A stretch of 64,000 nt of DNA from Mesorhizobium sp. M2D.F.Ca.ET.226.01.1.1 (GTDB taxonomy: Bacteria; Pseudomonadota; Alphaproteobacteria; Rhizobiales; Rhizobiaceae). Below, piece by piece: positions 25,699-38,741 of this stretch. A program made the translations under genes and the position numbers. The notes beneath the pieces are model-generated. The model was not told the DNA's origin and did not search any database. It was given only the letters and a program-made list of their open reading frames with translations. Each line of letters begins with the position of its first letter. Positions within the stretch are counted from its first letter, which is position 1. The stretch lies in the NCBI RefSeq assembly GCF_004022705.2, contig NZ_RZOY02000001.1:502956-566955 (forward strand), written 5' to 3'.

Positions 25699-27315
<1,617 letters not shown>

Positions 27316-27343
27316 AGTCGGGCGAGCCCAAACCGGGATCGGC

Positions 27344-27673
27344 TCACTGCGCGGAGGCGCACCTCTGCTTCCGCGCCGCGACGATCGCCTGCTGCTGTTG
27401 CTGCAGCCGTTCGATCTTCGCCGTTTCGCGGTTGGCTACCGCCGTCTTCACCCGCTCCCCGCCGAGCAGCCATGTCGGCAGGCTGGTCTTGGCGACCTTG
27501 CCGCGGGCGATCGCGGTGCGCGAAATGTCGGTGGCGGTGTCGCCGAGCTCGCTGTTGAGCTCGGCGCAGCTCATCTTGTCGTATTTCGCCGCGCTGATCG
27601 ACGCAGTGGTCGATGAACAGCCTGCCGTCAGAAGCAGCGTCACGATCGAAATGAGGGTGAGCGTGAACTTCAT
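27344..27673 (-). CDS. Small lipoprotein of unknown function
   Basis: 109-aa predicted lipoprotein. A short signal sequence (MKFTLTLISIVTLLLTAGC) ends in the lipobox LTAGC with the acylated Cys at residue 19. The mature part is helical, contains SCAELNSELGDTATDI and a Gln-rich stretch (LQQQQQAIVAARKQRC), and has two further Cys residues. Similar SCAEL-type small lipoproteins are widespread in rhizobia, without known function. Convergent with the ABC operon and divergent from the sensor kinase gene. The start at 27673 is chosen for the signal peptide; the frame stays open far upstream but that part is not signal-like. Confidence 0.72.
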   Translation of the reverse strand: MKFTLTLISIVTLLLTAGCSSTTASISAAKYDKMSCAELNSELGDTATDISRTAIARGKVAKTSLPTWLLGGERVKTAVANRETAKIERLQQQQQAIVAARKQRCASAQ

Positions 27674-28073
27674 TCTCTTGTGCAGAGCTCCGCTGATCAT
27701 GTGCTGCGTTGAACAGAACGCCATTAGGTCAAAGTAAGGGCCGGCTGTCGAGCACAATGGGCGGCCGCGGCCGTTCCAGCGACCCTGAAAGGTTAATGCG
27801 GGAAGGTGGGCGAAGCCATCAGTAACCGTCGGCCCGATGCTCGAGATGCGCGTTGCAACCAGCGCAATTCTGCGAAGAATATGTAACGGAATTCCGCAAG
27901 AAGTTACGTAAAAGCAAAGACTTAGATCGGATTGATGATTCTGCAAAACCTTAACCGTCTTGGGCCGCCCATCACCTTGCGCCATCCGCCCGCTGCCGAT
28001 GGCTGGTGCGCAGGCTCTTTAGACCTCGGATAGGTTTTGCCGATATTTTTCTGAGAAAGGGAGCAGGAACGTC
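27674..28073. other. 400-base intergenic region between lipoprotein and sensor kinase
   Basis: Divergent intergenic region that must hold both promoters. It is more AT-rich than its surroundings at 27860-27960. I see a 10-base perfect palindrome CGGAATTCCG at 27887-27896, flanked by GTAAC at 27883-27887 and GTTAC at 27902-27906. I see no convincing -35/-10 pair and no gene. Confidence 0.4.
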
Positions 28074-30515
28074 ATGACCGAAATCTGGCACTCACTCCTC
28101 GCCAATCTTGCCCTGGTCTCCATCCTGGTCGTCGCCTGGGACCTTGTGGCGGATTTTACCGGACGCCTCCCGCGGCTGATACAGTCGCTGCTTCTCGGTG
28201 TGGTGATGTGCGCGGGTTCGGTCATTTCCATGGCCACTGCGCTCAACGTCTCCGGCTTCGTCGTCGACCTGCGCGCCGCCTTCATCGCCGCCGCCGCGTT
28301 CTTTGGCGGATGGCCGGCAATGTTCGTAGCCACCATCGGCTCCGTCGCCTATCGCATCTATCTGGGCGGGCAGGGCGCTAACATCGGTGTCATGGGCATC
28401 CTGATCACCGCCATCGTCGGCATGGCCTGGTACCACATCGTCGCGGTCCGCTCGCGCACCATGTTCGACATACTCGGCCTCGGCGTGTCGGTGGCGCTCG
28501 CCGGGCTGATCACGCTTCTGGTCATCCCCCAGCAGTTCCTTACCGGTCTCGTTCAGCAGAGCACGTGGCCGTCCCTCGTCTTCCGCTTCATCAGCACCTT
28601 CATCATCAGCGTGCTGCTCGACCGGCAGCAGCGGCGGCGCGATCTCGCAATGTCCAACATGATCTACCGGGCCATGGTCCGCGAACTGCCGGATTGCCTC
28701 AACGTCAAGGATGCCGAGGGCCGCTTCGTCGTTGCAAACCCGGCCACCGCCGAAATGGTGGGCGCTGCATCGGTCGAGGACCTGATCGGCAAGACCGACT
28801 TCGATTTTTATCCGAAGGAGGTGGCGGAGCGCTTCAGGCAGGATGAGGCCGGCGCGCTGGAGGCCGGACAGACGTCGCGCATCGATCAGCCGGCGCAGTT
28901 CCCGGACGGCAGGCAAGGCTGGCTCTACACGTTGAAGGCGCCGTTCCGCGACGAGGCCGGCAAGACAGTCGGCGTCATCACCTACAATCGCGACATCACC
29001 GAGCAGAAGCGCAACGCGCAACTCAAGAACGACTTCATCTCCACGGTCAGCCACGAACTGCGCACGCCGCTGACCTCCATCCGTGGCTCGCTCGGCCTCA
29101 TTGCGGCCGGCGTCGCCGGCGAATTGTCGCCTAAGGCCGCCAACCTCGTCAACATCGCCCACAGCAACAGCGAAAGGCTGGTTCTCCTTATCAACGATAT
29201 TCTCGACATGGAGAAGATCGAATCGGGCGTGATCACCTTCAAGATCAAGCAGATGGCTGTCCGTTCGGTGCTGGAGCAGGCCATTGCCGCAAGTTCCAAT
29301 TACATGGCCGAGAACAAGATCCGCATGGTGCTGGTCGATGATGCTCCGCGCGCCGAGGCCAATATCGACCCGGACCGCATGCATCAGGTGATGGCGAATC
29401 TGCTGTCGAATGCAATCAAGTTCTCCGATCCGGGCGGCACCGTGATGGTGAAGCTCCAGCGTCGCGACCACGACATGCTGCGCATCTCGGTGATCGATCA
29501 GGGCGCCGGCATTCCGGAAGCGTTCCGCGGCCGCATATTCGGAAAGTTCGAGCAGGCGGATTCGTCCAGCACCCGCAAAAAGGGCGGCACCGGTCTGGGC
29601 TTGAGTATCGTCAAGGCCATCGTCGAAAAGCTGGGCGGCGCCGTTTCCTTCGAAACCGAGGAAGGCAAGGGGACTTCTTTCCACGTGGACCTTGCTGAAG
29701 CGCAAAGGCAAGCCGAGAAGCCGGTTCTTGTCGAGCGCCGGGCGCGCAAGCGCGATGGCCGCCTGCGTGTCCTTATTTGCGAGGATGAGGCCGATATCGC
29801 TGTGGTGATCGCGGCACTTCTCGACGCGGACGGTTTTTCCAGCGACGTCGCCCCCGATATCGACACCGCCAAGGCGCTTCTGAGCTCTCGCGACTATGTG
29901 GCGCTGACGCTGGATATCAAGCTCGCCGGCGAATCCGGGATCAAGCTCTTCCATGACATCAGGGCATCACAGGCGAATTCCGATATTGCGGTCATCGTCA
30001 TCTCCGCCGTCGCCGACGAGGCCAGGCGTTCGCTGAACGGCACCGCCGTCGGCATCGTCGACTGGCTGGAGAAGCCGGTGGATTCGCAGCGGCTTCACGC
30101 CGCGCTCACCAAGATCGTCGCCGGCAAGGTCGAGCCGACGCCGAGGATCCTGCACGTCGAGGACGACGAGGGTGTGCTGGCCGTGATGTCGGCGGGGCTG
30201 GGTCCGGGCGTATCGATCACCTCGGCGAAAACGCTGCAGGACGCCCGGCGGGCGGTCGCGAGGCGTCGCTTCGATCTGGTCATCCTGGACATCGCGCTTC
30301 CCGACGGATCGGGGCTGGATCTGCTCATCGACCTGCCGCAGGAGACAGGAGTGATCGTGTTCTCGGCGGCGGAGCTGGACGAGAAGCTCGGCGACCGGGT
30401 GCAGGCGATGATGACCAAGACCAGGGCATCGGAGATCGATGTCGCAAGGATGGTCAGAAGGATGCTGGCTTCGTCCCGCGGCGGCGCGGGAGCGGCCACG
30501 CAAGCAGGGGAGTGA
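28074..30515 (+). CDS. Membrane hybrid histidine kinase with two receiver domains
   Basis: 813-aa sensor. Residues about 1-190 form five or six membrane segments resembling the LytS-type 5TM domain. A PAS domain follows (residues about 200-320, ending YNRDITEQKRNA). The HisKA phosphoacceptor block is FISTVSHELRTPLTSIRGSLG. The HATPase N-box is MANLLSNAIKFSDPGG, with DQGAGI and GGTGLGLSIVKAI. Two C-terminal receivers follow: LRVLICEDEAD with Asp in LTLDIKLAGESG and Lys in LEKPVD; and ILHVEDDEG with Asp in VILDIALPDGSG. GGAGCAGGA precedes the ATG. The next gene is another receiver whose start overlaps this stop. Probably signals through the Hpt protein at 35784-36092. Confidence 0.92.
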   Translation: MTEIWHSLLANLALVSILVVAWDLVADFTGRLPRLIQSLLLGVVMCAGSVISMATALNVSGFVVDLRAAFIAAAAFFGGWPAMFVATIGSVAYRIYLGGQGANIGVMGILITAIVGMAWYHIVAVRSRTMFDILGLGVSVALAGLITLLVIPQQFLTGLVQQSTWPSLVFRFISTFIISVLLDRQQRRRDLAMSNMIYRAMVRELPDCLNVKDAEGRFVVANPATAEMVGAASVEDLIGKTDFDFYPKEVAERFRQDEAGALEAGQTSRIDQPAQFPDGRQGWLYTLKAPFRDEAGKTVGVITYNRDITEQKRNAQLKNDFISTVSHELRTPLTSIRGSLGLIAAGVAGELSPKAANLVNIAHSNSERLVLLINDILDMEKIESGVITFKIKQMAVRSVLEQAIAASSNYMAENKIRMVLVDDAPRAEANIDPDRMHQVMANLLSNAIKFSDPGGTVMVKLQRRDHDMLRISVIDQGAGIPEAFRGRIFGKFEQADSSSTRKKGGTGLGLSIVKAIVEKLGGAVSFETEEGKGTSFHVDLAEAQRQAEKPVLVERRARKRDGRLRVLICEDEADIAVVIAALLDADGFSSDVAPDIDTAKALLSSRDYVALTLDIKLAGESGIKLFHDIRASQANSDIAVIVISAVADEARRSLNGTAVGIVDWLEKPVDSQRLHAALTKIVAGKVEPTPRILHVEDDEGVLAVMSAGLGPGVSITSAKTLQDARRAVARRRFDLVILDIALPDGSGLDLLIDLPQETGVIVFSAAELDEKLGDRVQAMMTKTRASEIDVARMVRRMLASSRGGAGAATQAGE

Positions 30516-30895
30516 TGTTGATGCCGGCGAGGATCCTCTATGTGGATGACGAGGACGACATCCGCGAAATCGCCCAGATGTCGCTGGAGCTCGACCCGGA
30601 ATTCGAGGTGCGGTCCAGCGCTTCGGGCATCGAGGCGCTGACCGATGCCGCCGATTGGCGGCCTGATCTCATCCTGCTCGATGTGATGATGCCGGATATG
30701 GATGGGCCGGAAACGTTGAAGCGCCTGGCCGATTCGCCGCTCACGGCATCGATACCGGTCGTGTTCATCACGGCGCGCACCCAGACGCATGAGGTAGAGC
30801 GCTACCTCGCCATGGGAGCCGTCGGCGTCATCGCGAAGCCCTTCGACCCGTTGGCGCTTGCCGGCGAAGTCAGGAAGCTGCTGTTGGCGGCCTGA
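30515..30895 (+). CDS. Stand-alone response regulator receiver (first)
   Basis: 126-aa CheY-like receiver without output domain. Acidic pair DDEDD near residues 10-14, phosphoacceptor Asp in LILLDVMMPDMDGPE, Thr in VVFITARTQ, Lys in VIAKPFDPL: all key residues are present. Start ATG 30515 overlaps the kinase TGA by one base; in-frame GTG 30512 and ATG 30521 are alternatives. It probably exchanges phosphate with the kinase next door or the Hpt protein. Confidence 0.88.
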   Translation: MLMPARILYVDDEDDIREIAQMSLELDPEFEVRSSASGIEALTDAADWRPDLILLDVMMPDMDGPETLKRLADSPLTASIPVVFITARTQTHEVERYLAMGAVGVIAKPFDPLALAGEVRKLLLAA

Positions 30896-31070
30896 CGCGC
30901 CGTAGCGTTGGTGGGAAGCCTGCCGGCAAGGTGAATATGGCGTTTACGCCTCCTATACCACGCCCCGATATTCATCTACTGATTGTACCGTAATGCGGCT
31001 GCCGCGAATCGCTTTTATCTGTACTTGCGCGGCATTGGCCGGCGCGCATGTTCGCGCGGGTCTTGTCTGA

Positions 31071-31099
31071 ATGAACCGCTTTGGCGGATGTCGGTTCAT
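31071..31099. promoter_or_regulatory. Inverted repeat upstream of second receiver gene
   Basis: ATGAACCG at 31071-31078 and CGGTTCAT at 31092-31099 form a perfect 8-base inverted repeat with a 13-base spacer, about 48 bases before the next gene's start. Its position in the only sizeable gap of the cluster (30896-31146) suggests an operator. No clear promoter boxes could be assigned. Confidence 0.4.
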
Positions 31100-31146
31100 A
31101 GGTTGATTTCTCCGGGGGGCAACGAGGCATAACCGGAGCAGGATTG

Positions 31147-31536
31147 GTGGACGGAGCGAAGGCAAGAGTTCTGATCTGCGATGACGATCCCTTGTTGCTC
31201 GAGCTGATGGAATTCAGGCTGAGGGCGAAAGGGTATGAGGTCGACAAGGCCATGGACGGGGCCGAGGCGCTCTCGAAGGCACAGGATCGGCCCGACATCA
31301 TCGTGCTCGACGCGATGATGCCCAAGGTGGACGGCATCGAGGTGCTGGCTCGCGTCAAGGGCGACCCGGCGCTCTCGGAAACCCCCGTCGTCATGCTGAC
31401 TGCGCGCAAGGCCGAGAAGGATATCGTCTCGGCCCTGGAAAAGGGGGCCGACGACTATCTGGTCAAGCCGTTCATCCCCGAGGAGCTTTTGGCCCGCCTC
31501 GCGCGTCTGATTGCCCGCAAGAGTGGGAAGCGCTGA
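31147..31536 (+). CDS. Stand-alone response regulator receiver (second)
   Basis: 129-aa CheY-like receiver with all signature residues: DDDP near the N-terminus, phosphoacceptor Asp in IIVLDAMMPKVDGIE, Thr in VVMLTARKAEKD, and Lys in YLVKPFIPEELL. I choose GTG 31147, eight bases after GGAG at 31135-31138; a TTG at 31144 is the alternative. The stop TGA shares a base with the ATG of the outer-membrane barrel gene (TGATG), so it is translated as part of the biosynthetic run. No DNA-binding domain, so output must be by protein contact. Confidence 0.88.
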   Translation: MDGAKARVLICDDDPLLLELMEFRLRAKGYEVDKAMDGAEALSKAQDRPDIIVLDAMMPKVDGIEVLARVKGDPALSETPVVMLTARKAEKDIVSALEKGADDYLVKPFIPEELLARLARLIARKSGKR

Positions 31537-33311
31537 TGCGGCGCGGCCAGCGCGCAGCCCTTGCCGCATGCATGTTCCTCGCGATCGCCGCAGCCCCAGC
31601 TGCTGCGTTGGCGCAGACCGTTGACGAGCTCTACGCATCCGCCGTCAAGGCCAGGCAAGCCCAGCGCTTCGACGAGGCGGCCGACCTTCTCAAGCGCGCG
31701 CTGGCGCTCAAGCCCGACAATGCCGACGCCCTGGTTCAGCTTGGCTTTGCCGAGCTCGGCCGCAACGATCTGACGGCAGCGCGCGATGCCTTTTCCAGGG
31801 CGCTTGCGATTGCCCCGACCTATCGCGATGCCAGTTTCGGCATGGCCGAGGTCGAGTTCCGCTCCGGCAATCTGGACGCGGCACTCCCGCTCGCCGAAAC
31901 GATTGCGCAAGCCGATCCCGGCAATACCGACGCCGCATCGCTTGTCAGGAACATCCGCAAGGCTAAGCAGGCCAACGGCGTCAAAGCCAAACAGGCCGCC
32001 AGCAGCAAGGCGACGCAGTCTGGTTCGGCTCGTGCGCCGGTGAAGAAGCTGCAACGCCGGCCCGATCCCGTCGCTGGCCTGTTGGAGCAGGGCAGGCGCC
32101 TGCGCATCGCGGGGAACCTGCCTGAAGCCGAGACCGTCTATCGCCGCGCCCTGCAGCTTTCGCCAAAAGATACCGACATCCTGGTCGCGCTCGGCCTTGT
32201 CGTGGGCTCCAGCCAGCGCTTCGATGAGGCCGGGCAGTTGTTCGACCGGGCGCTTGCCATAAAGCCTGGGCTGCTCGATGCGCGGCTCGGCAAGGTCCGG
32301 CTGGCGGTCTGGCAGGGCGACGCGCCGCGCGCCCGTTTGGCTGTCGACGACGTGCTGGTGACGGCGCCGGACAATGCCGAAGCGCTCGACCTCGACGGAC
32401 GGATCGCGCTTCTCGAAGGCGATCAGACGCGGGCCGGGCAATCATTCCAGCGCGTGCTTGCGTCCGATCCGCGCAATGCCGAGGCGCTGGTGGGAATCGG
32501 CGATGTGCGCCGCGCTCAGGGCGACGACGAGGCCGCGCGGCAGGCTTACAACCAGGCGCTTGCCATCGAACCCGGCTCTCCCGACATCGAGCAGAGGTTG
32601 GCCGTGCCGCCGCCGCGCAAATGGCGGCTCGACCTCGGTACCGAGGTGAGCGATCTCACCAACGGGCTCGGCGACTGGACCGACAGTTCGGCCGGCCTTG
32701 CCTATCGGCTGTCGCCCGACACGACCGTTTCGGGGCGCACGCGGGTGGCGACCCGCTTCGGCCACACCGACGTTCAGATCGAGGGCCGGGTCGATCAAGC
32801 CTTCACGCCGGCCTTTTCGGCTTACGCCCTGGCAGCGGTGACGCCTGATGCCGACTTCCTGGCGCGCTATTCGATCGGCGCCGGCGCTGCCTGGCAGGTG
32901 GTGGCGCCGTCACGGGAGTTCGGCCCGCTCTCGCTCAACATCGATGCTCGCTACGACAATTTCGCGGATGCCGGCATCACCAGCATCTCGCCCTGGATAC
33001 AGGGCTATGTATTCGATGGCCGCCTGGGGCTTTCCGCCCGCTGGGTGCATGCCCAGGACAATAGCGGCACGCGCGCGGATGGCTACGTGCTGCGCGCCGA
33101 CCTCGCGGTCACGCCGCACTTCACCGTGTTCGGCGGCTATGCCGACGCCCCCGAGATCGATGACGGCGCGCTGGTGCCGACGCGCACCGTCTTTGGCGGT
33201 GTTTCCTGGGACGTCAGCGATCCGCTGACCTTGCGCGCCAGCATCGCGCATGAGCAACGCCCCACATTCGACCGAAGCATATTCGGGCTCGGCCTGACGG
33301 CACGGTTCTGA
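31536..33311 (+). CDS. TPR protein with C-terminal outer-membrane barrel (YaiO-like)
   Basis: 591 aa. Signal peptide at residues 1-27 (ends ALAQ). TPR repeats cover about 28-350 (for example FDEAADLLKRALALKPDNAD and FDEAGQLFDRALAIKPG), split by a Lys/Ala-rich linker at about 145-180. From about 360 to the end there are alternating beta strands ending in Phe (IFGLGLTARF), as in YaiO-type outer-membrane barrels. TPR plus barrel is the plan of polysaccharide exporters such as PgaA and of E. coli YaiO, which lies beside a GT2 gene (yaiP). Coupled to the receiver gene upstream and two bases before the HEAT gene. Proposed role: polysaccharide exit channel. Confidence 0.85.
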   Translation: MRRGQRAALAACMFLAIAAAPAAALAQTVDELYASAVKARQAQRFDEAADLLKRALALKPDNADALVQLGFAELGRNDLTAARDAFSRALAIAPTYRDASFGMAEVEFRSGNLDAALPLAETIAQADPGNTDAASLVRNIRKAKQANGVKAKQAASSKATQSGSARAPVKKLQRRPDPVAGLLEQGRRLRIAGNLPEAETVYRRALQLSPKDTDILVALGLVVGSSQRFDEAGQLFDRALAIKPGLLDARLGKVRLAVWQGDAPRARLAVDDVLVTAPDNAEALDLDGRIALLEGDQTRAGQSFQRVLASDPRNAEALVGIGDVRRAQGDDEAARQAYNQALAIEPGSPDIEQRLAVPPPRKWRLDLGTEVSDLTNGLGDWTDSSAGLAYRLSPDTTVSGRTRVATRFGHTDVQIEGRVDQAFTPAFSAYALAAVTPDADFLARYSIGAGAAWQVVAPSREFGPLSLNIDARYDNFADAGITSISPWIQGYVFDGRLGLSARWVHAQDNSGTRADGYVLRADLAVTPHFTVFGGYADAPEIDDGALVPTRTVFGGVSWDVSDPLTLRASIAHEQRPTFDRSIFGLGLTARF

Positions 33312-33313
33312 CC

Positions 33314-34351
33314 ATGTGGATGATCTGGAATCTCTCCATACTGCTCAGTGCTCTCTCCCTGCTGATCATGCTGTTCCTTATAGCCCGGCGGGTTTTGCAG
33401 GAGCGCCGCGACAAGGTGGAGGCCGACCAGCGGCGTCAGCTTCTGACCGCGCTGATCGCCTTCACGGAAAACCGTGACCGGGAAGCCTTGAAGGCGGTGA
33501 TGCTTGGTGTGCCGGCGAGCGTCGCGATCAATGCCGGCTTCGAGTTCGTTTCGCTGCTGCGCGGCGAGGAGCGTAACGAGGTGCTTGTCGCCTTCCATGA
33601 ATGCGGCTTGCCGGCTCTCGTCGGCAGGCTGCTGGAACGGGGCAATGTGGCCGAACGCATCCATGCGGCCGAGATGCTGGCAGCGCTTGGTTCGGAGGAT
33701 GCAACGGCAAGCCTGCTTTCAGCGCTTGACCACGATCACTCGCGCGATGTCAGGATCGCAGCGGCAATCGCGCTCTGCGATCTCGGCAGCTTGCCGCTGC
33801 TCGGCACCGCGCTGGACAAGATCGGCGTGGCGGGGCAACGCTCGCGGCGCCTGATCGATTTGTTCAGGCGCTTTCCGCGGTCGCGCTTCAACGAGCTTGC
33901 GGTCCATGCATCGCGTGCGGACGCCGTGCCCTTCGTCAGAGCGGCCGCGATCGACGCGCTGGCGCGCACTGGCGGCTTCGGCTTTGCCGATTTCTTCGCC
34001 GGCCTGGCTCGCAACGATTCGCCGGAGGTTGCCGCCGCGGCACTGCGTGCGCTCGGCCTCACGGGGCACGGCGCGGCACCGGCCATCCTCGCTGTCGCGA
34101 TGACGAACGCCGACTGGGATGTGCGCACCGCTGCCGCCGATGCCGCGGGTCGCCTCGGCCTGTCCGAGCTCGCCGCACCTCTGTCCCTGCTGATGGACGA
34201 TGAGTTCTGGACCGTGCGCTATGCCGCCGCCAACGCGCTTCGCGCGCTGGGCCAGCCGGGCGAGCGGCTGCTGCGTGAGATGGCTGGTAGCGAGGTTTCG
34301 CGCAGCCAGCGGACTGCCTCGCTTGTTCTTGCCGAGGGGCCAGCCGCATGA
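33314..34351 (+). CDS. Membrane-anchored HEAT-repeat protein
   Basis: 345 aa. One N-terminal membrane segment (ILLSALSLLIMLFLIARRV, about residues 8-26) is followed by a basic/acidic linker (LQERRDKVEADQRRQ). Repeated 30-residue HEAT units with the pattern VRIAAAIALCDLG, VRAAAIDALAR, VRTAAADAAGRLG and VRYAAANALRALG cover about 110-330. The repeat domain is probably cytoplasmic given the positive residues just after the membrane segment. No enzyme motif. Its stop overlaps the glycosyltransferase start (ATGA), so it is likely a scaffold or regulator of the synthase. A receiver-binding role is speculation. Confidence 0.85.
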   Translation: MWMIWNLSILLSALSLLIMLFLIARRVLQERRDKVEADQRRQLLTALIAFTENRDREALKAVMLGVPASVAINAGFEFVSLLRGEERNEVLVAFHECGLPALVGRLLERGNVAERIHAAEMLAALGSEDATASLLSALDHDHSRDVRIAAAIALCDLGSLPLLGTALDKIGVAGQRSRRLIDLFRRFPRSRFNELAVHASRADAVPFVRAAAIDALARTGGFGFADFFAGLARNDSPEVAAAALRALGLTGHGAAPAILAVAMTNADWDVRTAAADAAGRLGLSELAAPLSLLMDDEFWTVRYAAANALRALGQPGERLLREMAGSEVSRSQRTASLVLAEGPAA

Positions 34352-35775
34352 TCGCCGATTGGAGCCACGAGATCGTCCTCGCCGCCACCATCCTGTCCTG
34401 GTTCATCATCGGGGCGGGGCTGGCGCAGACGACGATCTATCTGCTGCAGCTGGTCTTCGCTGGCTATGCGCTTTCCAAGCGCCCGCCGGTCGCGCGCTCG
34501 GCGCTGCTGTGGCATCGCTATGGCGACGTCGCGCCGCCGATCGCGCTCTTGGTTCCAGCCTATAACGAGGCATTGAATGTGGTCGAGAGCGTGCATTCGA
34601 TGCTGGCGCTCGAATATCCGAACTTCGAGGTGGTCGTCATCAATGACGGTTCGAAGGACGATACCCTGCAACGGCTCATCGAGGCTTTCAGGCTGACGAA
34701 GTTCCACCGGCCCTATGAGGAGGCGCTGGTGCATATGCCGATCCGCGGCCTCTATTCATCGCCGATGACCGAACGGCTGTTCGTGGTCGACAAGGAAAAT
34801 GGCGGCAAGGCCGATGCCCAGAACGCCGGCATCAATGTCTGCCGCGCGCCGCTCTTCTGCGTCATCGACGGCGACTCGATCCTCGAGCCCGATGCGCTGA
34901 TGCGCGCCGCCCAGCCCTTCATTGACGACCCCGAGCGCACCATCGCCGTCGGTGGCACGATCCGCATCGCCAACGGCTCGAAGATCGAAGCGGGCAGGGT
35001 GCGCGAGATCCATCTGCCGCGCCGGCTGCTGCCGCTGTTCCAGGTGGTCGAATATCTCAGGGCCTTCCTCATGGCCCGGCTTGCCTGGAGCAGCATCAAC
35101 ACGCTGATGCTGGTGTCCGGCGCCTTCGGCATGTTCCGCCGCGCGGAAGTGGTGGCCGTAGGCGGTTTCACCAAGGGTTCGATGGGCGAGGACCTCGACC
35201 TCGTCATCAAGCTGCACCGCCACATGCGCGATACCAGGCGCAAATACCGCATCCAGTTCATTCCCGAACCGGTGTGCTGGACCGAGGCGCCGGAAACGCT
35301 GAGCGTGCTTGCAAGGCAGCGCTCGCGCTGGCAGCGCGGCGCGCTCGAGTGTTTCTTCCGCTATCGTTCCATGCTGTTCAACCCGCGCTATGGCCGCGTC
35401 GGCTTCCTCGGCTTCGGCCACATCCTGATCGTCGACGTGCTTGGGCCGGTGGCGGAGGTGCTGGGTTATATCCTGATCCCAGCCTTCTGGCTGCTCGGCA
35501 TCCTGTCGGCCGAATATCTCCTGGCCTTCACCTCGCTGATCTTCACCTATGGCGTCTGCGTCAGCGTCTGCTCGCTGATTCTGGAAGAGGCCGAGCTGCA
35601 GCGTTTTCCTCGCGCCAGGGATCTGGCCGTGCTGACGGCGGCGGCCGTTGTCGAGAATTTCGGCTACCGCCAGCTCAACAATTTCTGGCGCGTCAAAGGC
35701 TGGTGGCAATTCCTGCGCGGCAACCAGGGCTGGGGCGAGATGACGAGGACCGGCCTCGGCGGCGCCAAGAAGTGA
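34348..35775 (+). CDS. Processive-type family 2 glycosyltransferase
   Basis: 475-aa inner-membrane GT2. N-terminal membrane segments lie at about residues 10-40. The catalytic domain shows LLVPAYNEALNVVESVHSM, VVINDGSKDD, the DxD-type CVIDGDSIL, the base region GSMGEDLDLVIKLHR and the QRSRWQRGALE motif (QxxRW) of processive synthases. C-terminal membrane segments span about residues 355-430. Organisation resembles PgaC, HasA and YaiP. Probably makes a beta-linked polymer and threads it through the membrane. The sugar is unknown. Last gene of the coupled run. Confidence 0.9.
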   Translation: MIADWSHEIVLAATILSWFIIGAGLAQTTIYLLQLVFAGYALSKRPPVARSALLWHRYGDVAPPIALLVPAYNEALNVVESVHSMLALEYPNFEVVVINDGSKDDTLQRLIEAFRLTKFHRPYEEALVHMPIRGLYSSPMTERLFVVDKENGGKADAQNAGINVCRAPLFCVIDGDSILEPDALMRAAQPFIDDPERTIAVGGTIRIANGSKIEAGRVREIHLPRRLLPLFQVVEYLRAFLMARLAWSSINTLMLVSGAFGMFRRAEVVAVGGFTKGSMGEDLDLVIKLHRHMRDTRRKYRIQFIPEPVCWTEAPETLSVLARQRSRWQRGALECFFRYRSMLFNPRYGRVGFLGFGHILIVDVLGPVAEVLGYILIPAFWLLGILSAEYLLAFTSLIFTYGVCVSVCSLILEEAELQRFPRARDLAVLTAAAVVENFGYRQLNNFWRVKGWWQFLRGNQGWGEMTRTGLGGAKK

Positions 35776-35783
35776 GCCCCGCG

Positions 35784-36092
35784 TCACGTCAGCGTGCGCT
35801 CGATCTCCGTGATAAGCGCATCGAGCGCCGCGCGGACTGTTCCTCCATCCGCCTGCTCGACCAGCAGCGTCTCCAGCGCCGACGCCCGCGCGCTGATATC
35901 CCCAAATCCGAACGTTCCAGCTGCACCGGCGAGAGAGTGGGCGATCCGAATCAACGGCTCGCTGGAACTGCCGGCCAGGGAATCCCGACCGCCAGCGATG
36001 GTCTTCAGCTGTGCGAGCTGATCGGCGCACCGGGCGAGGAAGCGTAGGCGCAGCGGGGCGAAGGGATCGTTTGAAATGAGGCCACACTCCAT
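35784..36092 (-). CDS. Hpt (histidine phosphotransfer) domain protein
   Basis: 102-aa stand-alone Hpt protein. The phosphorylatable His lies in LIRIAHSLAGAAGTFGF (about residues 47-63), the standard HxLKG/AGAA pattern. The rest is helical with ALETLL following. It points toward the glycosyltransferase gene and is only nine bases from its stop. A hybrid kinase with receivers at one end of the cluster and an Hpt at the other make a complete phosphorelay. The ribosome-binding site is weak. Some such proteins serve distant kinases, so pairing is inferred. Confidence 0.83.
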   Translation of the reverse strand: MECGLISNDPFAPLRLRFLARCADQLAQLKTIAGGRDSLAGSSSEPLIRIAHSLAGAAGTFGFGDISARASALETLLVEQADGGTVRAALDALITEIERTLT

Positions 36093-36204
36093 TTCCGGAT
36101 ATGTGTGAGCCAGTCGCGCCGAGCGGTCCAGATGTTCTTTGATTTTTCTGTGGGGGCGTCTTCAGGGTAGCGAAAATGCCAAGTCGCTAACCCTTTGTTT
36201 TTTC

Positions 36205-36281
36205 TGGTCGGAGTGGCAGGATTTGAACCTGCGACCCCCTCGTCCCGAACGAGGTGCGCTACCAGACTGCGCTACACTCCG
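36205..36281 (-). tRNA. tRNA-Pro (anticodon CGG)
   Basis: 77-base cloverleaf read from the minus strand. The acceptor stem CGGAGTG pairs with CACTCCG. D-arm GTAGCGCAGTCTGGTAGCGC. Anticodon stem CCTCG/CGAGG with loop TTCGGGA, giving anticodon CGG. T-arm GCAGGTTCAAATCCTGC. Discriminator A and an encoded CCA at 36207-36205. Intact; no integrase or repeated 3' end is seen nearby. Confidence 0.95.
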
Positions 36282-36500
36282 CGACCAGACCGCGGGCTTA
36301 TAGCCGCCACTTTCCGATACTGCAAGCGGCAATGGTTGCACTTCTGTCGCATTTGTTCGCTTTTGCGAGAAGGCCTCTCAGTTCGCCGCGAAAATGCCGC
36401 CCTTGGTCCAACGGCTTTGCTCGGATCGGTTTCCGAATCGGGTAAATACCACCTGGAGGCGGGTGTGCTATTGATCGACCAACTCCAGAGCGAGACCTGA

Positions 36501-38741
36501 ATGAGCCAGCGCATCGTCAGTTTCGTCATGAGCGGCGGTGTCGGCTCGCGGCTGTGGCCGCTGTCGCGCGAGGACAATCCCAAGCAGTTCCACGATTTCT
36601 CCGGCGACGGCTCGATGCTGGCGAAAACCTTGCGCCGGCTGGCGGCACGGCCCGAAGGCGAAACACCGATCTTCCTGATCGCCTCGGAGCGTCACGCCGA
36701 GCGCGTCCATGCCGATCTTGCCGGTCTCGATCTCGGTGGCGGCGGTCCGTTGTTCGAGCCGACGGGGCGCAACACGGCGGCCGCCGTGGCGCTGGCCAGC
36801 CTGCGCACGCTTTCCGAGTTCGGCGACGAACTGGTGCTGGTGGTGCCGTCCGATCATGAGATATCGACGCCGCGCCAGTTCTGGCAAAGCATCGAGACGG
36901 GCGCGGCCGCGGCAAATGCCGGCCGGCTCGTGGTGTTCGGCTTGAAGCCGACACAGCCCGAGACCGGCTATGGCTATATCGAGGTCGGGGCCGACAAGGA
37001 CGGGGTGTTCGATGTCTCGCGCTTCGTCGAGAAGCCAGATATCGCCACCGCGCAGACCTATCTCGATGCCGGCAGTTTCTACTGGAACACCGGTATCTTC
37101 CTGTTTCGCGCCGGCGCCATGCGCGATGCCTTCGCAGCTTTCCAGCCCGACATCTGGCAGGCGACCGAAGCCGCCTACAAGGCGGCGACCAGCGATCTCT
37201 CCGGCCTCTATATGCCGCTGGAGCTTTACGCGGCGATACCCTCGACCTCGATCGATTACGCCATCATGGAACGCGCGAAAGACATCGCCATGGTGCCCGC
37301 CGGCTTCCGCTGGAACGATCTCGGCTCCTGGCAGTCGCTGCTCGATGTCGGCCCCTCCGACGGGCAGGGCAATGTCATCGTCGGGGACGTCGTCGCCATC
37401 GATTGCGAGAACTCCTATATCCGCAGCGAAGGTCGCCTGCTGTCGGCGATCGGCATGAAGGACGTGGCCATCGTCTCCACCGCCGACGCCACTTTCGTCG
37501 CGCCGGTCAGCCATAGCCAGCACGTCAAGAAGATCGTCGAGCAGCTGGAGAAATCCGGCCGGCTGGAGACGAGGTTCACGCCGGCGCATGACCGCGTCAT
37601 CGAGAGCGGCGCCTGGCGGCGGCGCGTGCGCCACTGGCTGTTCGAGGAGACGCTGCCGCTATGGTCGACGGTCGGCGTCGATGAGCGCCATGGCGGCTTC
37701 CACGAGGCGCTCGGCTTCGACGCCACGCCGCTGATGAAACCCAAGCGCATGCGCACGCAGGCGCGCCAGGTCTATGCCTTCGCCGTCGCCAAGGAGCGCG
37801 GCTGGGATGGCCCGGCCGACCGGCTGATCGCGCACGGCATCGACTTCATGGCAGGCAAAGGCCGCACCGAACGCGGCGGTTGGGTGCGCACGCTCAACAT
37901 AGATGGCTCGGTCGCCGATCCGGTCGAGGATGCTTACGACCATTCCTGCGTGCTTCTGGCCCTGGCGCATGCTCATATCTCAGGTCACCCCGACGCGTTG
38001 CGGTTGGGCGAGGAGACGTTCGCCTTCCTTGACGCGCATCTGGAAGACAGCCGCATGACCGGCTTTCTGGAAACCTCCGACGGTGCGGACGAGCGGCGCT
38101 CCAATCCGCACATGCATTTTCTGGAGGCTTTTCTGGCCTGGCATCAGGCAACCGGCGAGCGCGCCTATCTGCGCCGCGCGGCCCGCATCATCGACCTTTT
38201 TCGCAGCCATTTCTTCGATGCCGAAAGCTGGACGCTTGGCGAATATTTCGACCAAGGCTGGAAGCCGGCGGCGAACGGGAAGGGCAGCTGGACCGAGCCC
38301 GGTCATCATTTCGAATGGGCCGCGCTGCTTGTCGATTTCGCGGCCCGCAGCGGCCAGAATGAGCTCACGGCCTTTGCCCGCAAGCTCTATGCCTCGGCCA
38401 TCGCCAACGGCCTCAACCGCGCCACCGGGCTCGCCTACGGCGCCGTCTCGCGCCAAGGCCTGCCGCTCGAAACCGTCTCACGCAGTTGGCCGCAGGCCGA
38501 GGCAGTGAAGGCGGCGATCGCGCTCGACGGCTCGGGCGGGCCGGACCTCAAGCCCGAGATCGAAGCGCGCGTCGGTCGGCTGTTCCGCTGGCATATCGAC
38601 CCGGCGCCGCTCGGCCTATGGATCGACCGCATCGACGAGCGCGGCCGTTCACTGGCGACCGAGGTGCCGGCCAGCATCTTCTATCATCTGGTTTGTGGGC
38701 TGACGCAGTATCTGGACGGGACGGGGGGGAACTCTCAGTAA
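36501..38741 (+). CDS. Fusion of mannose-1-phosphate guanylyltransferase and AGE-family isomerase
   Basis: 746 aa. Residues 1 to about 350 are a GDP-mannose pyrophosphorylase domain: [47 protein letters not shown] and [13 protein letters not shown]. Residues about 370-740 are an acylglucosamine-2-epimerase/mannose-6-phosphate isomerase (AGE) barrel: [35 protein letters not shown] and [12 protein letters not shown]. It could carry out fructose-6-P to mannose-6-P and mannose-1-P to GDP-mannose, lacking only the phosphomannomutase step. The usual bacterial fusion pairs the first domain with a cupin-type isomerase instead. The last seven bases overlap the convergent betB. Confidence 0.88.

Follow-up and report, generated by a model that had tools for sequence, protein, structure and literature searches.

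A HEAT–glycosyltransferase pair possibly gated by a response regulator: a proposed seven-gene polysaccharide synthase cassette in Mesorhizobium

What would control a putative polysaccharide synthase whose gene is enclosed by phosphorelay genes is the question raised by a seven-gene block of Mesorhizobium sp. M2D.F.Ca.ET.226.01.1.1, located within the 64,000-nucleotide stretch of contig NZ_RZOY02000001.1 analysed here (positions 502,956 to 566,955; hereafter the window). The block encodes a hybrid sensor kinase, two stand-alone receivers (RR1 and RR2), a tetratricopeptide-repeat (TPR) outer-membrane barrel of the YaiO type, a HEAT-repeat protein, a membrane glycosyltransferase of family 2 (GT2; this enzyme and its relatives are called GT below) and an Hpt phosphotransfer protein. 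A first-pass annotation, made from the letters alone, had described these seven genes as a self-contained phosphorelay joined to a surface-polysaccharide machine; the positions and domains of all seven were borne out (Table 1), and domain search of the seven proteins gave no match to PilZ, deacetylase, hydrolase or DNA-binding domains, as it had stated. The block is probably one machine, in which HEAT and the membrane GT2 would form the synthase, the phosphorelay would switch it by protein contact, and the barrel would export the product.

The mechanism that we infer begins with the kinase, which would sense a signal and pass phosphate from its histidine via its own receivers (or RR1) to Hpt and then to RR2. 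Phosphorylated RR2, which lacks a DNA-binding domain, would dock on the cytoplasmic HEAT solenoid, and HEAT, anchored beside GT, would in turn alter the activity of the synthase, whose chain would be exported by the TPR–YaiO barrel. The order to which we commit is thus sensor kinase, Hpt, RR2, HEAT and GT, with export by YaiO; HEAT and the receiver would take the role that PilZ and cyclic di-GMP play in cellulose-type systems.

The pairing of HEAT with GT was analysed in a neighbourhood sample of 81 loci, consisting of the window and the best 80 of at least 586 GT relatives obtained by profile search of genome contigs, a choice that favours closer relatives. Neighbours were recognised with profiles built from the window proteins and extended over the 81 loci, and the locus map was rebuilt on domain coordinates after long GT frames had been found to be artefacts; apparent HEAT–GT fusions in L011, L025 and L082 were rejected, the extra N-terminal parts being the HEAT gene read in another frame. 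By title, the loci belong to Alpha- and Gammaproteobacteria, Bacteroidota, Bacillota, several actinobacterial groups, Acidobacteria, Gemmatimonadota, Neomarinimicrobiota, Bdellovibrio, Myxococcota, an archaeal metagenome-assembled genome and others, with the reservation that many of the 80 are metagenome-assembled genomes and may be misnamed (the title of L056, for example, reads Klebsiella pneumoniae). The HEAT gene lies immediately upstream of GT in 78 of the 81 loci, at a gap of −14 to 148 nucleotides, counting L026 and L030, in which HEAT is cut by the contig end; the three others are L059 and L079, whose contigs start at or in GT, and L086.

The pairing persists when loci are thinned to less than 70% GT identity (HEAT upstream in 48/50, a partner receiver, as defined below, in 40/50). 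In an even phylum sample, GT was found in 14 of 398 genomes, our own included (the window, L159 and L165–L176); HEAT stands upstream in all 14, the match in L175 covering a short stretch only, and a same-strand receiver precedes the barrel or HEAT in 12. The gene order recurs across phyla, far beyond chance. Deposited annotations agree: a plasmid of the isolate archaeon Haloarcula halophila lists a sensor kinase, a small opposite-strand gene, a response regulator, HEAT, GT and a sensor kinase, and a Devosia entry lists response regulators, TPR, HEAT, GT (in two annotated pieces) and Hpt; a Paenibacillus stretch that was also compared carries no deposited annotation. The neighbourhood of HEAT, for which a comparison across Rhizobiales had been envisaged, keeps its pairing with GT well outside that order, in many phyla and in an isolate archaeon.

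As a control, 40 of 83 places matching the PgaC model in 190 Alphaproteobacteria were inspected over about 4–6 kb on each side; they comprise 28 of 30 places used earlier (not L103 and L105) and 12 more, mostly longer matches. At least 1 kb upstream is visible in 38 of the 39 places outside the subfamily, and the control GTs match the GT profile far more weakly (48–229 bits) than subfamily members do. The 39 places without an ENFGYRQ-type motif have HEAT in none, YaiO in none and a receiver in six, and the single place with such a motif (L231) has HEAT, receivers and barrel together. A narrower control on 30 of the 83 places was set aside, since at least 1 kb upstream of the GT frame could be seen in only 4 of 28 non-subfamily loci.

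The association of receivers with this core was measured by a strict rule, under which a partner receiver lies on the same strand and adjoins HEAT, adjoins a barrel that itself adjoins HEAT, or directly follows GT; receiver domains shorter than 90 residues were excluded from the tree and the partner counts. Such a partner is present in 64 of the 81 loci, and any receiver lies within 8 kb in 72; the nine remaining loci include five with less than 2.2 kb upstream (L034, L055, L059, L074 and L079) and four that show none. The idea that the barrel, HEAT and GT genes might rarely adjoin receivers, which would have undercut the first-pass annotation, is contradicted by these counts. In a tree of 199 receiver domains, labelled by the last receiver of each partner protein, the partner label changes 11 times, vs. 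a mean of 54 and a minimum of 42 in 1000 shuffles; in a thinned tree it changes 10 times, vs. 31 in shuffled trees (minimum 23). Of the 64 partners, 53 fall in one main clade of 65 tips (support 0.956), whose other 12 tips are non-partners. The partner receiver thus appears to be mostly dedicated, in a lineage largely its own, and the assignment of RR2 to the barrel–HEAT–GT unit gains from both the adjacency and the clustering on the tree.

All parts needed for a phosphorelay, i.e., HisKA, receivers with intact sites and Hpt, are present in the block. The four receivers of the window were inspected at the acidic, Asp, Thr/Ser and Lys positions, and RR1 and RR2 retain their Asp, Thr and Lys sites. 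The best model for RR2 is PhoB (TIGR02154, 123.6 bits) and that for RR1 is PleD, both far under the cut-offs; the C-terminal half of the partner consensus is likewise PhoB-like (GAdDYlvKPF.P.EL.AR). The phospho-site Asp is retained in 60 of the 64 partners. By the profiles used, these 64 consist of a receiver only in 50 cases, Hpt-REC-REC in nine, REC-REC in four and REC-GGDEF-REC in one. The nine Hpt-REC-REC single chains link the separate Hpt of the window to RR2, in keeping with the earlier placement of Hpt in the system; phosphate may pass among the block's own proteins, as co-occurrence and these single-chain forms suggest.

A structure model of HEAT from 85 sequences (predicted local distance difference test, pLDDT, 96.1; predicted TM-score, pTM, 0.88) shows a 52-residue N-terminal helix, which is read as a membrane anchor and stalk with the solenoid behind it; conservation is highest in the C-terminal repeats, at about residues 264–320. 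Its matches in the Protein Data Bank (PDB) are designed alphaRep binders, importin-alpha, PP2A subunits and other solenoids, which point to a binding scaffold and nothing more specific. Contig-cut L026, L030, L059 and L079 were excluded from the alignments. HEAT-rich proteins with no GT within 1.5 kb were also seen in two Mesorhizobium genomes (L007 and L008) and are probably unrelated.

The GT has the features of the processive GT2 class, namely a GT-A core, DxD, an acidic base motif, QxxRW and membrane helices; D174, D176, E281, D282, Q324, R327 and W328 are invariant in a 73-row alignment, QxxRW corresponding to Q324–W328. A model from the 73 sequences (pLDDT 91.5, pTM 0.91) finds hyaluronan synthases as PDB hits 1–12 (TM-score 0.48–0.60, 14–17% identity), followed by cellulose synthase (hits 13 and 16–18), the mannosyltransferase PcManGT (hit 14) and chitin synthases, with 12–20% identity across the 50 matches listed. 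This resemblance to hyaluronan and cellulose synthases favours the earlier view of GT as a synthase, and GT is likely a processive polysaccharide synthase by its modelled fold.

The barrel scores above cut-off for both YaiO models (TIGR04390, 171.4 bits vs. 32; PF19413, 33.8 vs. 23.9). YaiO matches occur in 50 of 65 loci from two-membrane cells vs. 0 of 16 from one-membrane cells (Fisher p 9e-9), where the envelope type is that generally known for the named organism and some two-membrane loci are truncated. The distribution is what the export role proposed in the first-pass annotation predicts, and the barrel is a candidate export pore.

Several observations weigh against the inferred machine. 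Seventeen of the 81 loci fail the strict rule, several at contig edges, three with opposite-strand receivers and L085 by spacing; no receiver was found near the HEAT–GT pair in L056, L072, L073 and L078; and plasmids of Deinococcus, Bacteroides and Planococcus carry HEAT–GT with no annotated receiver in the stretch, although the annotation of these stretches may have gaps. The main clade does not separate partner receivers strictly from the rest, with 11 of them outside it and 12 non-partners inside, and four of the 64 have Glu at the phospho-site. An N-terminal membrane stretch was detected in 57 of 76 HEAT proteins, by a crude hydropathy cut that omitted L026 and L030 and with uncertain starts. 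No true HEAT–GT or REC–HEAT fusion was found among the loci mapped. One Mesorhizobium locus (L160, genome G001) keeps open HEAT and GT frames although RR1, Hpt and one half of RR2 have been lost. Finally, GT matches the PgaC model TIGR03937 (E 1e-42) at 146.6 bits, far under the cut-off of 422.3 bits, and the sugar is therefore left unassigned.

Because HEAT–GT pairs occur with no receiver found nearby, HEAT is more aptly seen as, first of all, a co-subunit of the synthase, usually though not always commanded by a receiver. The HEAT–GT pair would be the core and the receiver its usual, not universal, input; at receiver-less pairs other inputs may stand in its stead. The earlier proposal that HEAT is the receiver-responsive adaptor holds in so far as a receiver is usually near, and gives way in so far as HEAT is primarily the near-constant companion of GT.

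A scaffold reading goes further, taking HEAT as a structural co-subunit that keeps the synthase assembled or couples it to export, with the receiver acting elsewhere, e.g., as a phosphate store. The receiver-less pairs, which suggest a receiver-independent task for HEAT, speak for it. However, a largely separate receiver lineage takes up its position beside HEAT, the barrel or GT in the 64 partner loci, and adjacency holds in barrel-less cells too; since the receiver adjoins HEAT or GT even there, its constant neighbours are HEAT and GT, and we regard the scaffold reading as unlikely. Lone receivers can work within relays, and RR2 might instead act through gene expression by relaying its signal to another protein, a transcription factor governing the cluster, a route to which the conserved non-coding blocks upstream of RR2 would be suited. 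The absence of DNA-binding domains from the seven proteins and the constant content of the block in different surroundings make this quite improbable.

That GT adds single sugars to lipid or protein, and makes no polymer, would fit PcManGT as hit 14 of the GT model, but the 13 structural matches ahead of it are hyaluronan and cellulose synthases, QxxRW is invariant in the 73 rows, and the barrel accompanies GT in two-membrane and not in one-membrane loci; there is only a slight chance of such an activity. The chance is slimmer again that cyclic di-GMP is the true trigger and the receiver a side input. Hpt-REC-GGDEF-REC proteins do adjoin the cluster in L053, L054, L058, L060 and L062, whereas PilZ and GGDEF are absent from the window's seven genes, and GGDEF-type matches appear in only 11 of the 81 domain maps, by a profile grown from one seed. 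In those five loci the protein is an extra one beside a lone receiver, and cyclic di-GMP may add a layer there. The reading retained is direct control of the HEAT–GT synthase by the relay.

Within Mesorhizobium the seven genes are one unit, found at different genome sites in relatives. GT is present in 30 of 119 genomes of the genus. Loci from 28 of the 29 other GT genomes were examined (in the remaining one, G002, the contig ends 86 bases past GT), and 27 of these have the seven genes in the same order; L158 has about 1.7 kb more between GT and Hpt, with gene order kept. A kinase match (E ≤ 1e-150; best 47 candidates per genome scored) was obtained in 5/5 GT-bearing vs. 0/16 GT-lacking genomes. 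The flanks differ, forming 14 groups among 29 on the left and 17 among 27 on the right, numbers that divergence can inflate. At the site corresponding to that of the window, the block is absent in all eight copies examined; four of these genomes carry it elsewhere (G004, G015, G018 and, decayed, G001) and four lack GT (G003, G008, G009 and G023). In G004 (L184), the matches to window positions 26503–27765 and 36195–36368 are only 69 nucleotides apart, and other sequence stands between the flanks in G023 (about 250 nucleotides) and G015 (about 980 nucleotides). The block is accordingly present or absent as a whole at the sites examined, in varied surroundings, which agrees with its description as self-contained.

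The decayed locus of G001 has one long frame (L160 6710–9292, − strand) in which the second receiver of the kinase is in frame with the second half of RR2, and its barrel is open. A HK-REC-REC-REC fusion of kinase and output receiver was considered and rejected, the phospho-site half of RR2, RR1 and Hpt being gone; deletion decay is the likely origin, and the long frame is given no weight in the argument. At the block edges no terminal or telling repeats were found, and a search, by sequence only, for an integrase/att origin showed that the tRNA end is not repeated at the left edge, the only match being an 11-base chance one inside. G018 has a second, partial tRNA-Pro copy of 60 nucleotides at this site (L189 3319–3378), a hint of an integration hotspot at the tRNA-Pro end.

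Table 1. Coordinates of the block, its genes and adjoining features in the window
Feature	Position	Strand	Remarks
Block missing from the corresponding site of other Mesorhizobium	27766..36194	.	Boundaries approximate
Hybrid sensor kinase, 813 residues	28074..30515	+	5TM-5TMR_LYT, PAS, HisKA, HATPase_c, REC, REC; domain search
RR1, stand-alone receiver	30515..30895	+	ATG start; GTG 30512 possible too
Intergenic stretch before RR2	30896..31146	+	Sequence blocks conserved in Mesorhizobium
RR2, stand-alone receiver	31147..31536	+	PhoB-like; lacks a DNA-binding domain; probably the output receiver
TPR and YaiO outer-membrane barrel, 591 residues	31536..33311	+	Likely export pore
HEAT-repeat protein, 345 residues	33314..34351	+	HEAT_2; predicted N-terminal helix 2–53, then alpha solenoid
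Membrane GT2, 475 residues	34348..35775	+	DxD/GED/QxxRW, C-terminal ENFGYRQ motif; likely processive polysaccharide synthase
Hpt phosphotransfer protein, 102 residues	35784..36092	−	Convergent to GT
tRNA-Pro (cgg)	36205..36281	−	3′ end at right block edge; kept at sites without the block

The gene junctions noted at first hold: RR2 and the barrel share a TGATG with common base 31536, a 2-base gap separates the barrel from HEAT, and the HEAT stop overlaps the GT start as ATGA at 34348–34351. A further TGATG (30513–30517) joins the kinase stop to an ATG of RR1, which is probably its start. For RR2, GTG 31147 is a more probable start than TTG 31144: in 29 aligned Mesorhizobium upstream regions (where the row of L160, with its truncated RR2, is misplaced), the GTG is conserved and the TTG is not. 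The promoter and leader of the RR2–barrel–HEAT–GT unit are likely to lie in the intergenic stretch, as its conserved blocks suggest; a promoter scan gave no promoter-like site on its + strand. The leader at 31040–31146 is partly conserved in Mesorhizobium and has, in the window, the inverted repeat TGAACCG...CGGTTCA. Tandem repeat, Rfam and promoter scans yielded nothing of use except the tRNA.

A fused mannose-1-phosphate guanylyltransferase/GlcNAc-2-epimerase-type protein (ManC-AGE) is encoded at 36501–38738 and was rejected as a part of the system, with a match in 19 of 21 genus genomes (5/5 with GT, 14/16 without); some genomes have two matches. Five representatives of other recurrent neighbours were compared with Pfam, and two matched, a polysaccharide deacetylase and a short-chain dehydrogenase. 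A polysaccharide-deacetylase-like protein lies near the cluster in L021 (5401–7188, − strand), with relatives in L036, L038 and L086, and is absent from the block of the window. At loci in which a receiver or HEAT is missing, nine proteins from the flanks were compared as well; two had matches, with none in common. The partner receivers with Glu for Asp (L051, L084, L088 and L089) are possibly locked on.

Among known systems, PgaABCD for poly-GlcNAc resembles the block in its PgaC-like GT2 core and its TPR and outer-membrane barrel; in contrast, the block has no PgaB-type deacetylase domain, has HEAT and a receiver, and its barrel is of the YaiO type. Bcs cellulose synthase shares the GT2 fold with the GT model, whereas the block lacks PilZ and a hydrolase (BcsB was not looked for by name). 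The hyaluronan synthases of Chlorella virus and Xenopus are the nearest solved folds to the GT model and are not known to need a HEAT partner or a receiver. In E. coli yaiO/yaiP, according to the first-pass annotation, a YaiO barrel lies near a GT2; this pair is not known to have a HEAT or receiver partner.

A HEAT–GT2 neighbourhood is also found in the Clostridium perfringens necrotic-enteritis locus CP4_0464–CP4_0468, which we take to be NELoc-2. A table for this locus sets a HEAT protein beside a putative GT2 (PMC2879425), among VTC-domain and CotH genes and, in the passage concerned, with no receiver (PMC2879425). We read this pair as the same core, set beside ours by description only. In Planococcus (L182 1–6386), HEAT–GT likewise stands beside DUF4956 and CotH genes with no receiver seen, and CotH neighbours may mark a second context of the core in Planococcus and, by that table, in C. 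perfringens.

In bacteria, cyclic di-GMP is the switch of the familiar synthase-dependent exopolysaccharide machines. No description of a receiver–HEAT–GT system was found in the open-licence PubMed Central literature; synthase-dependent secretion is already known, and the proposed receiver–HEAT control and the cassette are what is new. We give roughly even chances to the wider proposal of a synthase class, spread over Bacteria and Archaea, in which a response regulator gates the enzyme allosterically through a HEAT co-subunit, as a post-translational switch in place of cyclic di-GMP and PilZ, and whose sensor, relay, gate, synthase and exporter in Mesorhizobium move jointly in one 8-kb plug-in cassette. 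If true, the receiver–HEAT gate, conserved in many phyla and an archaeon, would be a second general switch for membrane polysaccharide synthases. Through the two-gene HEAT–GT core, many surface polymers that have no assignment yet could simply be found, named and tested, and the 8-kb cassette is small enough for whole deletion in ordinary Mesorhizobium strains.

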